Assembly: GCF_004762035.2 (NCBI RefSeq)
Contig: NZ_SIJK02000057.1
Location: 1 to 33,592, forward strand
DNA length: 33,592 nucleotides
From: Candidatus Chloroploca mongolica
GTDB taxonomy: Bacteria; Chloroflexota; Chloroflexia; Chloroflexales; Chloroflexaceae
Reading direction: 5' to 3'
Below are positions 23,722 to 29,023 of this stretch, in pieces. A program made the position numbers and the translations under genes. The notes beneath the pieces are model-generated. The model was given only the letters and a program-made list of their open reading frames with translations. It ran no database searches and was not told the DNA's origin. Position 1 is the first letter of the stretch, and every line of letters begins with the position of its first letter.

Positions 23722-23731
23722 CATTGGATAC

Positions 23732-23778
23732 GGGCAAGCGAAAACCTGCCAGCAAAGCTGGCAGGTTTTCGCTTGCCC
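23732..23778. terminator. Bidirectional terminator between dps and the ABC ATPase
   Basis: Arms 23732-23753 and 23757-23778 form 22 perfect pairs with an AAA loop. The GC core CCTGCCAGC is flanked by AAAA on one side and TTTT on the other, so it can work on both strands. It ends one base before the stop of the convergent gene. Confidence 0.9.
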
Positions 23779-23779
23779 T

Positions 23780-24763
23780 TCAGTTTGTTCCGCCGTATGC
23801 CGAGCCTCTGGTAACCTGCATGAAGATGTCTTCAAGGTCATTCGTTTGACCGGCAAAGTGCGTAATCTGGACCCCGCCTCCAATCAAGTGCGTGAGTAGC
23901 GCACTGACGACGTGATCATCACCATCAAGATCAACTTGAAGTTGTGGGGGATGCTCGTCGGGCATCATGCGAACATCAAGCACATGGGGAAGGTCGCGTA
24001 CTAGGGCGGCGGCATGTTCCAGGCTGACGAGAGGTTCGGTGCCTTCGACTGGCAGCAGGTGGATTTCAAAGGTACGGTGTGGTTGCAGCGACCGCAGAAT
24101 GGTGTTGACATCACCCGACGTGATCAGCGTGCCACGTTCGATAATGCCAATGTGGGTACACATCTCGGCCAGTTCGGTCAAGATGTGGGAACTGATCATG
24201 ATCGTCTTGCCGAGGCGGCGCAATTCTTTGAGGAGTTCGCGTAGCTCGACGCGTGCCCGTGGATCGAGCCCGCTTGCCGGTTCATCAAGGATGAGCAGGG
24301 CCGGATCATGCAGCATCGTACGCGCTAGGCTCAACCGTTGCTTCATCCCCCGCGACAGACCCATCACGTCGGCCTGCTTTTTGTGGGTCAGGTCAACCAG
24401 TTCAAGCAGATCGTCAATCAGACGTGAACGACGTGCGGGATTGATCTCGTATGCTTCGGCAAAGAACTCCAGGTACTCGTGCGCTTGCATATTGTCGTAC
24501 ACGCCAAAAAAGTCGGGCATAAAGCCGACCTGGCGCCGTACCTCCAGCCGCTCACGCACCACCGAATGCCCCGCTACATACGCTTCACCCTCACTGGGAA
24601 GCAACAACGTCGTGAGAATGCGCATGGTGGTGGTTTTGCCTGCCCCATTCGGCCCAATGAAACCATACACCGCCCCCTGGGGAATGGTCAGGTTGAGATC
24701 ATGGAGGGCCACCATGTCTCCGTAGCGACGGGTGAGGGCATGTGTTTCGACGATGGCGCTCAT
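23780..24763 (-). CDS. ABC transporter ATP-binding protein
   Basis: 327 residues. A full ABC nucleotide-binding domain: Walker A GPNGAGKTT (37-45), the Q-loop region VGFMPDFFGVYDNM where the usual Gln is Pro, signature LSRGMKQRLSLA, Walker B LLILDEPASGLD and His switch SSHI. The ATPase is closest in type to the ABC-2 and GldA/NatA-like exporter subfamily, followed by an extra C-terminal domain (about 225-327). Its ATG overlaps the upstream gene's TGA (ATGA), so it is translationally coupled to the 635-residue membrane protein. No permease gene lies downstream; dps is convergent. It may work with that membrane protein or with a permease encoded elsewhere. Confidence 0.93.
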   Translation of the reverse strand: MSAIVETHALTRRYGDMVALHDLNLTIPQGAVYGFIGPNGAGKTTTMRILTTLLLPSEGEAYVAGHSVVRERLEVRRQVGFMPDFFGVYDNMQAHEYLEFFAEAYEINPARRSRLIDDLLELVDLTHKKQADVMGLSRGMKQRLSLARTMLHDPALLILDEPASGLDPRARVELRELLKELRRLGKTIMISSHILTELAEMCTHIGIIERGTLITSGDVNTILRSLQPHRTFEIHLLPVEGTEPLVSLEHAAALVRDLPHVLDVRMMPDEHPPQLQVDLDGDDHVVSALLTHLIGGGVQITHFAGQTNDLEDIFMQVTRGSAYGGTN

Positions 24764-26667
24764 GGGTGCTCCAGCCGAATCATATAGAGGGTTTCGCCCT
24801 GGTGTTGGGGCGTATGCCCGGGCAAGGTCACCTCAAGCAGTGACGCCTCTTGCCAGCCAAGCAAATAGATGCCATCATCAACTATGCCAGGGCTGGTGTT
24901 TTGCACAGGTGCGTTGAAGGGCATAAAGTTCCCAGAGCCAAAAAGGTTATTGAGAACCTGCCCGCGATTGATCATCGTACTGTTTTCTTGCCAGAAACCA
25001 AACGGAAAATTGCCTTGATCAAGCATAAGGTCGACTGCTACCTGTGTCCCAGCCCGCAGATCCCCAAGGCTCTGGGCTGATTCGCCATGCACGATCATCG
25101 CATCACGGAGATCGGTGTCAGTCACGGTGAGCTCACCATAGATGCGTCGGCGTTCCATCTGGAGCTTGCTCACGACGTCGGGCACCTCGTCAACCATCTG
25201 TTCAACCATCAGGGTGCGCAGCGACGACACATCAATGAGCAGATCTTCCATTCCTGCCGAAGCATCATCACGGGTTACCGGTACATTGTTGGCCTGAAAG
25301 CGCTCAAAGGTTGCGGGGGTGATCAGGGCCTGCGCGTCCACTTGAAGCTGGTAGCTCTGCCGTTGGGGTGAAAAAACCCCGAGAAAGACGGTGGCCTTGC
25401 CCTGCTGGTGCCCCTCAAAGCTCTGGACAAGCGCCAGTTGCGGGACAGTCGGGGCTGTACCGCGAATGAGCAGACTGATGCCATAGGAGGCTATCAGAAA
25501 GAGCACAATCAGGCCCGGAGTCGTAAACCATGCCAGATCAATGCGTCCGAGTTTGCGTAGCACAAGGAAATTGAGCGGGCCAATGATCACAATATAGAAC
25601 CCCATCAGCAGCAGCAGGATACCGGTGGAAGGGAACTGAAGCCCGGGGAGTTGCAGGGTATTCGCGAGTAGACTCTCGTTGCGCCAGCGAAAGCTCGCCG
25701 CAATAGGCATCTGAGGTTGCAGCGTGATAACTGCTTGCCAGAGTTCTGCTTCGCCACTCCACATCCGTGTGCTAGCAAGATCAAAAGCCGCAAAGATCAC
25801 CTGACCAACCCCGAGATGGTGGCTCACCAGAAGACCGGCGCGATCAAGCGGCTGAGCCCCGGGGCGGAACGTAACGCGGTTGGCACTGAAGTTGGGGAGT
25901 TCGCCAACGCTGGTCGCTTGCTGCACCAGGGCTGCCAGACTGGCCGCACTGACCCCGGCTTGCAATTCGCCGACGTTGACTGGCAAGAGATCATCGAGCC
26001 CTGGGACAGACTGCGACGCGGCTGCCCCGCCGCTCACAACCAGAACACCCCCAAGGTGAATCCACAAATCCAGCGCCTCACGTTGACGAGGGCTCAGGTC
26101 AGCCGTGACGAAATCATGCACAAAGATGATATTTATGCCTGAGAGCAGAGCGGGATCATCGGGCAACAGCGTCGGGTCGAGATGACTCACGATCGTCGTC
26201 GTATTAGGTGCAAAGGTTGCCGCAGCGAGGCTATTGAGCATCGAGCGATCACGACTAAGCACCCCGACCGTAATCTGGCTCTCGTTCAGGGGGACAAGAC
26301 TCACCCGGGTGCTTGTCAACGCCTCGCCATCAACGCTGAACGCAACGGTCGCGGCACGGGTCATCCCGGTTGTCATCACAGGCAAGCGCACCTGTTTCCG
26401 CGCCCCCTGGGGCAGATCAAGGCGATAGCGATAGAGCGCCTGATCATGGTTCGCGAAGCGCCACTCCAGAGTACCCTGAAGATCGGGGCCATCGTTGCTC
26501 ACCACAAGGCTGGTGGGAAACCAGTGACCGATGCGATAGTGTCCAGCCCCATCGAACCCGGCCAGCACCTCGATTCGCACCGGCGTCTCGTCCTGCGCGT
26601 GGGTCAACCGGGCAGGCACAAACAGCACCAGTAACGCAAACAGCACCAGCAAGCGCCAGTGTTTCAA
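24760..26667 (-). CDS. Signal-peptide-bearing membrane protein with GATase-like domain, ABC-associated
   Basis: 635 residues. It starts with TTG: GGGAG lies six bases before it. A signal peptide covers residues 1-24 (LLVLFALLVLFVPARLTHA). A beta-rich region (about 28-125) follows, then a segment (about 130-300) with IIFVHDFVTAD and LDLWIHLGGVLVVSGG like the class I glutamine-amidotransferase fold used by ABC-auxiliary proteins such as GldG. Two membrane helices lie near 347-370 and 380-401, with PLNFLVLRKLGRIDLAWF between them. A long outside domain (about 405-635) completes it. I recognise the general layout but no named family. It is 15 bases after the PH-domain gene and overlaps the ABC ATPase by four bases, so a physical partnership is likely. 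Confidence 0.75.
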   Translation of the reverse strand: MKHWRLLVLFALLVLFVPARLTHAQDETPVRIEVLAGFDGAGHYRIGHWFPTSLVVSNDGPDLQGTLEWRFANHDQALYRYRLDLPQGARKQVRLPVMTTGMTRAATVAFSVDGEALTSTRVSLVPLNESQITVGVLSRDRSMLNSLAAATFAPNTTTIVSHLDPTLLPDDPALLSGINIIFVHDFVTADLSPRQREALDLWIHLGGVLVVSGGAAASQSVPGLDDLLPVNVGELQAGVSAASLAALVQQATSVGELPNFSANRVTFRPGAQPLDRAGLLVSHHLGVGQVIFAAFDLASTRMWSGEAELWQAVITLQPQMPIAASFRWRNESLLANTLQLPGLQFPSTGILLLLMGFYIVIIGPLNFLVLRKLGRIDLAWFTTPGLIVLFLIASYGISLLIRGTAPTVPQLALVQSFEGHQQGKATVFLGVFSPQRQSYQLQVDAQALITPATFERFQANNVPVTRDDASAGMEDLLIDVSSLRTLMVEQMVDEVPDVVSKLQMERRRIYGELTVTDTDLRDAMIVHGESAQSLGDLRAGTQVAVDLMLDQGNFPFGFWQENSTMINRGQVLNNLFGSGNFMPFNAPVQNTSPGIVDDGIYLLGWQEASLLEVTLPGHTPQHQGETLYMIRLEHP

Positions 26668-26682
26668 GGGTGTCTCCCGGGC

Positions 26683-28194
26683 TTATGTTTTAATTTCATC
26701 GTGTTTGATCTGCGCTTCATGATAATGGCGCAAGAGTGCAAGGGTATCATTGAGGGCACGATCTTTATCTTTGCGCTTGAAGCGGACATTATATTCCGTC
26801 ACCTTGGTGACAACATCAGCGGGACGTGGCACGCGATGAAAGGTGAAATTCCCTCCTGCGCCTGCGGTGCTCAACTCGACATCGCCATAGCCTAGCAGGT
26901 TACTGATATAGGTTGTCTTGGATTGCACATTATTAATACTGCCCAGGCCGGCCTCACGGCGTTCCTCTGGGCCAAAGGGCTTTTTCTCGATATCAATCAC
27001 CTTTTCGGGGGTAAGGGTATAGGTGTCATTGCGATAGTCCTCGACTTCATACGCGGCCCAGGCGATAAAGACGAGCATCACTACCAGCAACCCGAAGATG
27101 ATCAAGGGAAAGCCAAGGAGCAGCGCGCTCCCGCCGACCAGCACCACAGGTACCCCGAGCAAAAGCCAGAGCACTGGCCCGATCAACCCGCGCACAAGAA
27201 AGAGCCAATGCGGGCGCCAGACGATCTGCTGGGTCTCATAATTAATCTCAGGATTATCGTGCAGAAACTGGCGCATCCACCCCATCATGCGCGTTTGTCG
27301 CGGGGGTTGGGCCAGCGGTGATGCACTTGACGCTTTTTCACCATAAATCCGATCAGCAATCAGTTCTTCAAAGGTGTGCTCACTACTTACTTTGCGCAAG
27401 GCACGCACCTGAGCCATAATCTGCTGCTGCATCACCATCGGCTTGTCGGCAGACGTAAAGACAATATTGCCATTGATACGTGCTGATTTGAGCTCAATCG
27501 TGCCATATTGCAACCAGTGTTGGGGATACGTTTTGGTGAAGGCGTTCACATCCTGCACATCTTCCAGAAAAATCTGGCGTTGCACGCGACGCTCGATGAG
27601 ACGCGGAATAATCACCTGATCATTATCATAGACAATGCGTTGATTGGTAAGGATCAACTCATCGTTGAGCCAGTCATAAAACGTAAAGAGCACCATCACC
27701 GTACTGATGATGGCACCGAGCACGAGAATCAGATTGAACGCATCGCTACTCTGCCCAACAGCGGCATTGGCATCGAGGTAGAAGATGCGCCCACCGGTGA
27801 AACGAAAATAGAAGAGCAATCCATGCCCAATCAGGGCCAGGGTAATGATGATCTGGGCCGAGCGATTCTGCTTGCCACGTACAGCCAGGATGACCCAGAT
27901 GAAACCAAGCAGCAGCATCAGAAGGAGCAGCAGCCAGTTGAACACATCAATGCTGCCCCGGTCATCTACCTGCGAGGCAAGGAATTGCCCGCCCAGCGCC
28001 CGATAGAGCGCCAAGCCACCAAAAAAGATCAGGCTAAAGAGAGGAGGAATCAGGCGTCCGAGCAGGACAATATAGTGACGCCCAGTGACGTGAAGAATTT
28101 CCTCCGTCTCACCGAGATCAATGGCTGATTCGGCATCAAGGTGCAGTTGAATCCGCAACCATTCAGCGACTGACCATGAGGAATTGCTAGCCAT
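26683..28194 (-). CDS. Membrane protein with two bacterial PH (YdbT-type) domains
   Basis: 503 residues. Hydrophobic segments are at about 42-66, 86-106, 113-133, 153-173, 333-355 and 358-382. Each block of membrane helices is followed by a bacterial PH domain: the first (about 173-265) has LTNQRIVYDND and YGTIELKSARING, the second (about 384-475) has YTLTPEKVIDIEKKP and YGDVELSTAGAGGNF. Relatives are the YdbS/YdbT type. Their function is not settled. GGAGG stands 12 bases before the ATG, a longer spacing than usual. It is 43 bases after cytidylate kinase and 15 bases before the GATase-like membrane protein, so they probably share a transcript. Confidence 0.86.
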   Translation of the reverse strand: MASNSSWSVAEWLRIQLHLDAESAIDLGETEEILHVTGRHYIVLLGRLIPPLFSLIFFGGLALYRALGGQFLASQVDDRGSIDVFNWLLLLLMLLLGFIWVILAVRGKQNRSAQIIITLALIGHGLLFYFRFTGGRIFYLDANAAVGQSSDAFNLILVLGAIISTVMVLFTFYDWLNDELILTNQRIVYDNDQVIIPRLIERRVQRQIFLEDVQDVNAFTKTYPQHWLQYGTIELKSARINGNIVFTSADKPMVMQQQIMAQVRALRKVSSEHTFEELIADRIYGEKASSASPLAQPPRQTRMMGWMRQFLHDNPEINYETQQIVWRPHWLFLVRGLIGPVLWLLLGVPVVLVGGSALLLGFPLIIFGLLVVMLVFIAWAAYEVEDYRNDTYTLTPEKVIDIEKKPFGPEERREAGLGSINNVQSKTTYISNLLGYGDVELSTAGAGGNFTFHRVPRPADVVTKVTEYNVRFKRKDKDRALNDTLALLRHYHEAQIKHDEIKT

Positions 28195-28237: not shown

Positions 28238-28915
28238 TTATCCGTTGTGATGACCCGCCAGATAGTCTAGAATCCACGCCAGTTCATCATCTGGCGAGAG
28301 GCCATCTGTCTGGAGGATAACGGCATCATCGGCTGGTTTCAGCACATGGTCATCAAGTTGGTCACGACGGGCGAGATCTTGCTGAATCTGAGCCATCACG
28401 GTCTGGTCGGGATCATCATCGCGTTCAACAGCACGGCGACGGGCGCGTTCCTGGAGCGAGGCTTCCAGGAAGATCTTGAGGTCAGCGTCGGGCATCACAA
28501 TGGTACCAATATCGCGTCCAACCATCACTGTGTTGCCACGCCGTCCGATCTGCTGTTGTTGGCGTACCATCTCGCGGCGTACCTGGGGATATCGCGCAAC
28601 GAGGGATACATTACGCTCGACCTCGGGGCTACGGATGGCCCACGTCACATCCTCACCATTGACGAGCACCGTATACTGGCGTCCGTCATCGGTGATTGGG
28701 GCGGCGACCTCTATCTGTACCTCATAGGCTAGCCTTGCCATTTCTGCCTCATCGTGCAGATCAAGCTTTGCTTGCAAGGCAACCAGCGCAAGCGCACGAT
28801 ACATGACCCCTGTATCAAAATAGAGGTAACCAAGCTGGTTGGCTAACAGTGCCCCCAGGGTACTTTTTCCTGCCCCTGCAGGCCCATCAATCGCAATCAC
28901 TGAGGGTTGCAACAT
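28238..28915 (-). CDS. cmk: Cytidylate kinase
   Basis: 225 residues. The enzyme moves phosphate from ATP to CMP or dCMP, in pyrimidine nucleotide supply. Seen: P-loop GPAGAGKSTL (11-20), CMP-site LGYLYFDTGVMYRALAL, MVGRDIGTIVMPDADLKIFLEAS for nucleotide binding, and the RRAVERDDD-type lid region. Length fits the family (about 225). The ATG at 28915 gives the normal N-terminus MLQPSVIAIDGPAG, though its ribosome site is weak. It has its own promoter (28994-29023) and is followed 43 bases later by the PH-domain gene. Confidence 0.96.
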   Translation of the reverse strand: MLQPSVIAIDGPAGAGKSTLGALLANQLGYLYFDTGVMYRALALVALQAKLDLHDEAEMARLAYEVQIEVAAPITDDGRQYTVLVNGEDVTWAIRSPEVERNVSLVARYPQVRREMVRQQQQIGRRGNTVMVGRDIGTIVMPDADLKIFLEASLQERARRRAVERDDDPDQTVMAQIQQDLARRDQLDDHVLKPADDAVILQTDGLSPDDELAWILDYLAGHHNG

Positions 28916-28940
28916 AGTGCGTATTCTGTCATGCAGAAAC

Positions 28941-28992
28941 AACAAAAGAGCCCGAGCATCGCAGCGTTTCGCAACGTTGCGTGTGCAGGCTC
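28941..28992 (-). terminator. Terminator after the DUF4388 gene, overlapping the cmk promoter
   Basis: On the minus strand GAGCCT (28987-28992) pairs with GGGCTC (28948-28953), with further internal pairing such as GCA/TGC and the CGCAACGTTGCG palindrome, followed by TTTTGTT. The downstream end of the hairpin precedes cmk. The predicted cmk start falls at or inside the 5' arm, so only read-through RNA from upstream can fold it. Confidence 0.6.
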
Positions 28993-28993
28993 T

Positions 28994-29023
28994 ATTGTAG
29001 CATGGCGCAAGGCTTGATGACAA
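28994..29023 (-). promoter_or_regulatory. Promoter of the cmk cluster
   Basis: On the minus strand: TTGTCA (29018-29023), 18-base spacer, TACAAT (28994-28999) preceded by TGC, an extended -10. It sits between the DUF4388 stop and cmk. Confidence 0.62.

Follow-up and report, generated by a model that had tools for sequence, protein, structure and literature searches.

A PH-GIFT-ATPase gene block of Candidatus Chloroploca mongolica and its probable permease encoded elsewhere in the genome

The stretch of DNA analysed here (the window; 33,592 nucleotides) is contig C113 of the 6.3-Mb genome (G000) of Candidatus Chloroploca mongolica, genus Candidatus Chloroploca, and carries a block of three genes that raises a simple question: where is the permease of its ATP-binding cassette (ABC) ATPase? 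All three genes lie on the minus strand; the first encodes a double-PH (bPH_2) membrane protein of 503 amino acids (26683-28194), the second a GIFT/GATase1-like membrane protein of 635 amino acids with a TTG start (24760-26667), and the third an ABC ATPase of 327 amino acids (23780-24763). The tight spacing remarked on in the initial annotation of this DNA is evident from the open reading frame (ORF) coordinates, as a 15-base gap (26668-26682) separates the PH and GATase-like (GIFT) genes and a 4-base overlap (24760-24763) joins the GIFT and ATPase genes. That annotation described an ABC ATPase without a permease; it is argued here that this headline is most likely wrong, and that the products of the block are probably three subunits of a four-subunit ABC-2 type envelope machine whose permease is encoded by a lone gene elsewhere. 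Genomes, loci and contigs are labelled G, L and C; the window's family, Chloroflexaceae, is f1 and Herpetosiphon is f2, while f4 and f3 are presumably Roseiflexaceae and Kallotenuaceae, guesses that are not used as evidence.

Linkage of the block and location of the permease

All 41 family genomes have the PH gene next to the GIFT gene, and in 38 of them the ATPase gene follows the latter, a conserved linkage whose absence the initial annotation had named as speaking against its proposal; adjacency was scored between tblastn matches, with gaps of less than 800 bases for the PH gene and less than 700 for the ATPase gene, and in G010 and G029 a contig end truncates the PH match. The ATPase is missing from the locus in G001, where the contig ends, and in G039 and G040, both of genus g18. 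The linkage of the block is far beyond chance, because the adjacency persists across 18 genera of the family while GIFT identity falls to 34%. No relative of an ABC-2 permease was found at the orthologous locus in any of the 41 family genomes (tblastn, E 1e-3), at least 3 kb downstream of the GIFT gene having been read in 37 of them.

A permease of this type is encoded elsewhere in the window's own genome, at G000:C127:187-1107 on the minus strand, and matches PF12679 with 29.8 bits (cut-off 27.2). Orthologues of this lone permease are present in 40 of the 41 family genomes at 50-100% identity; the one miss is G020, a 71%-complete genome, and in G002 the gene is split into two pieces that lie on different contigs. 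In G006, G007 and G009, each assembled as one contig, the lone permease lies 1.0-1.5 Mb from the block, and no relative of either the window ATPase or its paralogue was found near it in 20 loci read (E 1e-3), several of which are cut by contig ends. Within the genus its ratio of non-synonymous to synonymous substitution rates (dN/dS) is 0.10-0.11, like that of the ATPase (0.08-0.12); ATPase, PH protein and lone permease share a range of 0.08-0.15, indicating strong selection, and the GIFT protein is under weaker constraint (0.24-0.30). In G019, G029 and G032 the lone permease is the sole permease of its kind, and each of these genomes has a single GIFT match.

The neighbours of the lone permease vary among the genera inspected. 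In the genus of the window, it follows the genes of a CHRD-domain subtilase and an alpha/beta hydrolase (L171 2235-5291 and 1104-2141) and overlaps the hydrolase gene by 4 bases, an arrangement not seen in the other genera looked at.

Orthology was assessed in a careful tree of 39 permeases out of 105 permease rows, in which the lone permeases, the ATPase-linked permeases of f4 and the operonic permeases of f3 fall together (100/98) and, once the f2 and class-level permeases are included, are split from the paralogous permeases PERM105 and PERM127 at 100/99. Approximately unbiased (AU) tests speak against placing the lone permease in one group with PERM127 (rejected, p 3e-6) or with PERM105 (rejected, p 2e-49); these p-values are somewhat flattering, as the grouping was defined only once a first quick tree had been seen. 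The quick tree contained long branches and was replaced by the careful one, and permease pieces shorter than 220 residues were dropped before tree building. PERM127 had itself been considered as the relocated operonic permease and was rejected by the careful tree. GldF (TIGR03518) is the best-scoring NCBIfam family for each of five permeases tested, with 23.6-46.5 bits against a cut-off of 288.5; the lone permease has the lowest of these scores (23.6 bits), and the f3 and f2 permeases score 46.5 and 40 bits.

The description of an ATPase without a permease holds for the locus and most likely does not hold for the genome as a whole, as an orthologous permease is consistently found elsewhere in relatives. 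The initial annotation had named such a permease beforehand as the observation that would speak against its proposal, and this is what the gene-neighbourhood survey found.

Divided and paralogous sets

The same genes are kept in other arrangements outside the family. A four-gene PH-GIFT-ATPase-permease block is found in Herpetosiphon (L046, L052 and the named loci L271-L273) and in f3 (L044, L058 and L113-L115). In f4, neither an ATPase nor a permease lies beside the GIFT gene in any of the 21 GIFT loci read, of which L102, L104 and L107 end soon after or within that gene; an ATPase relative adjoins a permease away from PH-GIFT in 20 of the 22 genomes searched, out of 26 f4 genomes. These pairs were established from coordinates in 19 of the 20 cases and by reading the locus in G061, where the ATPase is cut by a contig end. 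Thirteen pairs come from outside genus g34; 12 of these have ATPases of 57-71% identity, and G061 contributes an ATPase piece only. Some f4 members have no PH relative in the set. PH-GIFT, ATPase and permease occupy three separate places in g18, and in G089, from outside the order, PH, GIFT and ATPase genes stand together and the one permease match is on another contig. Across these groups the set occurs as an undivided run of four genes, in a three-plus-one split or in a two-plus-two split; because sister families divide it differently, the subunits are suggested to act together in trans. GIFT and permease match numbers are also equal in 67 of 82 genomes of the order (rho 0.88, uncorrected for kinship and with the two numbers taken at different thresholds).

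Two local features of these loci are recorded separately. A relative of TilS-phosphoribosyltransferase follows the GIFT gene in 19 of the 21 f4 loci, sometimes divided into two ORFs, and Pfam identifies TilS fused to a phosphoribosyltransferase domain at L051 4382-6424 and L043 5427-7475. In the two g18 genomes ccmB (Pfam) stands directly after the GIFT gene, and the ATPase at its other site adjoins a gene for a CcmA-like ATPase, which scores 128.5 and 131.3 bits against a cut-off of 131.6; the g18 coordinates are L066 1387-2142, L074 5844-6530, L202 5135-6761 and L203 1847-4503. It looks as though the ccmABC locus and the PH-GIFT-ATPase locus exchanged tails in this genus. As a candidate for the permease of the set, ccmB was rejected: by Pfam it is a cytochrome-maturation gene, it occurs here in two genomes, and the ATPase lies elsewhere.

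The divided sets bear on the reading that this is a true permease-less machine, in which the ATPase would drive the GIFT protein and the six-helix PH protein alone and the lone permease would belong to something else. Such a machine would suit the empty locus of all 41 family genomes, and the PH protein could have replaced a permease; hydropathy counts give six helices in most f4 loci and three to four in f2 and f3. The f4 PH proteins are six-helix proteins too, yet f4 keeps its ATPase-permease pair, and orthologues of the lone permease adjoin relatives of the window ATPase in f2, f3 and f4. A mirror-tree test, corrected with cytidylate kinase over 15 genomes, gives similar values for the lone permease with the ATPase (PERM3-ATP, 0.94) and for the paralogue (PERM105-ATP, 0.92), and so counts neither for nor against the pairing. 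The presence of a strongly constrained orthologous permease in 40 genomes, with no ATPase relative found near it in the loci read, weighs against a permease-less machine, which is considered very unlikely.

Several permeases of this kind were picked up by a permease model across the window's family. The window's genome contains three GIFT matches, three strong permeases of this kind and two close ATPases, namely that of the window (100%) and ATP105 (52% identity), the next match being at 38%. ATP105 belongs to a paralogous set on C105 (G000:C105, L039), a full GIFT-ATPase-permease block in which the PH protein was not found and which falls in clades separate from the window set in both the permease and the ATPase trees. 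A paralogous pair, GIFT127-PERM127, lies near 106 kb on C127 of the same genome (L040 3680-8403), beside a DnaJ-TPR protein and without an ATPase; no ATPase was found in the nine loci where both of these genes could be read. The GIFT-ATPase-permease core also occurs in Anaerolineae and Thermoflexus records.

The pair without an ATPase raises the possibility that the window ATPase is shared and powers PERM127 as well as the lone permease, which would be compatible with the four-subunit reading. The surplus of GIFT proteins and permeases over close ATPases in this genome would be accounted for in this way, as would the nine loci lacking an ATPase; on the other hand, eight Chloroflexus-type (g4) genomes keep the ATPase and have strong permeases of the lone and PERM105 types only, and PERM127 is nearer to PERM105, making ATP105 an equal candidate to serve it. 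A shared ATPase is therefore regarded as possible but doubtful.

The proposal that the lone permease completes the set is still considered the probable one, and several points weigh against it. Seven of the 20 f4 pairs come from g34, with ATPases only 45-53% identical and on long branches where placed, so that their assignment is less secure; the G063 ATPase is on a 3.1-kb contig without a permease, with no strong permease match anywhere in that genome, and G062 has no ATPase match and, of the permease, just a fragment beside the end of a contig. The agreement between GIFT and permease numbers shifts with the threshold, since a GIFT model of greater sensitivity returns three matches rather than two in several Chloroflexus-type genomes, and the mirror-tree values given above separate the lone permease poorly from its paralogue. 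Because the GIFT127-PERM127 block has no ATPase, the window ATPase could serve PERM127 too, or instead. The structural model of the PH protein is of only moderate confidence, and its Foldseek matches fall short of E 0.001. Lastly, we infer the physical pairing of the ATPase with the lone permease, and this too is counted as a weakness.

Predicted structures, mechanism and surroundings

The ATPase matches Pfam ABC_tran with 99.4 bits and carries the Walker A (GPNGAGKT), signature (LSRGMKQ), Walker B (LLILDEP) and H-loop (SSH) motifs, which are intact in all 23 family ATPase rows examined. Its best NCBIfam match is DrrA (TIGR01188; 242.9 bits, under the cut-off of 312.45) and its second-best is GldA (TIGR03522; 208 bits, under the curated cut-off of 402.6), so that the resemblance to GldA noted in the initial annotation is upheld below family level; the solved chains matched by the ATPase include NosF. 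In a quick ATPase tree the window protein belongs to a family clade of 23 rows that is separate from the clade of the paralogue ATP105, and some f4 rows have long branches; pieces shorter than 250 residues or below 40% identity, namely two pieces of L092 and the weak matches of L202 and L203, were left out. The family ATPases of G017 and G029 are found in two pieces or frames, perhaps through assembly errors.

The GIFT protein matches no Pfam and no NCBIfam family up to E 0.1, GldG included, in libraries that we take to hold a GldG model; among 34 aligned GIFT rows, DUF7408 is matched by 17 and DUF4350 by 10 (E up to 0.01). Its AlphaFold2 model has a mean predicted local distance difference test (pLDDT) score of 85.7 and is composed, in order, of an N-terminal helix, a beta-sandwich, a GATase1-like domain at approximately 130-318, a helix hairpin at 348-402 and a C-terminal beta domain; the hairpin consists of two membrane-length helices, 348-372 and 376-402. 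Residues ~130-318 match GATase1-like, ThuA-like and IFT52 structures in VIA-align with Z of 17.1 to 12.7, the named matches being 2gk3 (Z 17.1), 3soz, 3rht and IFT52 (Z 12.7), and the domain in the model has the GIFT fold. The Foldseek top list for this model was set aside for its low TM-scores (0.09-0.22 by query length). As in GldG, a GIFT/GATase1-like domain is found in a membrane protein, judged by the fold match and the modelled hairpin; the earlier description of a two-helix protein with a GldG-like amidotransferase fold is correct at the level of the fold. The GIFT fold takes its name from GldG and IFT52, according to the available part of PMC7226087.

The nucleophile cysteine of class I glutamine amidotransferases is absent from the window protein, which has no cysteine at all; another 16 of the 34 aligned rows lack cysteine as well, and in the stretch from residue 130 to residue 318, counted along each row itself, a cysteine is present in only one of the 34. 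Because the window protein contains no cysteine, catalysis of the amidotransferase type appears unlikely from its sequence. The short basic link within the modelled hairpin suggests that the large domains of the GIFT protein may lie outside the cell.

The PH protein matches Pfam bPH_2 (PF03703) with 32.4 bits, over the gathering score of 22, and all 27 aligned PH rows match the same family. Its AlphaFold2 model (mean pLDDT 76.2; predicted template modelling score (pTM) 0.55) contains six membrane-length helices and two PH-like modules at approximately 178-284 and 391-502, each built of six strands followed by one helix; the six long helices are interpreted here as probable membrane helices. 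Within the stated confidence of the model, a six-helix double-PH protein, as first described, is supported.

A mechanism may be proposed for the four-subunit machine. The ABC core would consist of an ATPase dimer and a dimer of the unlinked permease. The GIFT protein, held in the membrane by its hairpin, would be the outward working or ligand-binding part and would be moved by the ATP cycle, as may be envisaged for GldG with GldA and GldF. The PH protein would present its pair of PH modules at the inner face of the membrane and dock or steady the ATPase or the cargo, a role modelled loosely on the PH-domain proteins of leaderless-bacteriocin export. The cargo could be a lipid, a polysaccharide or a protein, or the machine could exert force on the envelope; its likeliest task would be to export or remodel an envelope component.

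Around the block, a cytidylate kinase gene (28238-29023, minus strand; Pfam Cytidylate_kin) lies upstream, as it does in most f1 and f4 loci and in both f2 loci read, and Pfam identifies a DUF4388 protein and a MutS-like protein upstream as well. Downstream of the ATPase is a convergent gene labelled Dps-like by eye, and a pattern scan finds a 20-pair hairpin between the two, a possible terminator (23732-23778). In two congeners the space between the ATPase and Dps-like genes holds, by alignment, a gene for a six-helix protein of 192 amino acids (L059 9977-10555; L060 10354-10932) with the N-terminal motif YTEQDTE...SSAG; the same interval of the window (23722-23779) is merely a 58-base gap with the hairpin, lacking this gene, and the window's genome has just one 34% identical relative and one chance-level match. 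The gene has a strong match in 16 of the 41 family genomes and is still beside the relocated ATPase in G039 (L203). It was rejected as a hidden permease, as it has no ABC-2 match in Pfam or NCBIfam and is absent from the window.

Relation to known systems and to gliding

The closest known system is the gliding-associated ABC transporter GldA-GldF-GldG of Flavobacterium, which likewise combines an ATPase, a small ABC-2 permease and a GIFT/GATase1-like membrane protein. By locus number, gldA (Fjoh_1516) is far from gldF and gldG (Fjoh_2722 and Fjoh_2721), and the membrane localisation of GldA requires both GldF and GldG, as given in the available part of PMC9127263; the separation of gldA from gldFG is a precedent for a set that is split. 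The separated gene is the permease here, whereas in Flavobacterium it is the ATPase gldA. The systems also differ in that the proteins described here miss the curated GldA and GldF cut-offs or, for the GIFT protein, match no family; in the addition of a double-PH protein; and in phylum. The best reading is of a GldAFG-like ABC-2 machine that is conserved, has its genes dispersed and includes a double-PH protein as an extra subunit.

Other relatives share fewer features. The C105 and Anaerolineae GIFT-ATPase-permease blocks hold the same three subunit types in one block, but differ as complete operons in which the PH protein was not found. NosDFY couples an ABC ATPase, NosF, to an extracytoplasmic partner; its partner protein and operon are different, and it may serve as an analogy of mechanism only. 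In enterocin DD14 export, the PH-domain proteins DdE and DdF are needed alongside the ABC transporter DdHIJ (PMC8657885, as far as available); this relation is by the PH domain only, and no bacteriocin gene was seen here, though none was sought. Within the limited literature and terms searched, no publication on the PH-GIFT-ATPase set was found.

The likeness to GldAFG raises the question of gliding, a role that is possible for this set by analogy. A gliding motor, or a gliding-linked secretion device of filamentous Chloroflexota functioning like GldAFG, would be in line with GldA and GldF being among the best family matches and with a GIFT fold that is named after GldG (PMC7226087, in the part available), although the GldA and GldF cut-offs are missed by far. 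In the order that includes named gliders the set comes with the PH protein, which was not found in Anaerolineae loci with the window PH protein as query; against this, G089, which does not belong to the order, shows a relative of the PH protein in its set and some f4 members have none. GIFT proteins of this kind, paralogues included, are present in 134 of 400 genomes of the phylum, and because of this breadth the GIFT-ATPase-permease core is not a hallmark of gliders. The 2011 Herpetosiphon genome paper, in its available part, finds no homologues of the Flavobacterium johnsoniae gliding proteins in H. aurantiacus and leaves the Chloroflexi gliding genes unidentified (PMC3368417), statements that count against and for a gliding role, respectively; a 2026 review lists gliding in Chloroflexota and, in the part available, names no genes (PMC13104615). 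A gliding device of this kind is considered unlikely. A wider version, in which a GldAFG-like surface machine with a double-PH subunit on the inner face and one ATPase for several permease-GIFT pairs would contribute to gliding, is quite improbable.

An apparent oddity becomes, in the preferred reading, a four-subunit system with a named candidate for its missing gene, and provides an example of how annotation from the neighbourhood only can misread a split operon. Because the gliding genes of Chloroflexi are reported as unidentified in the available part of PMC3368417, a GldAFG-like set conserved through the gliding families would be a concrete candidate for them.

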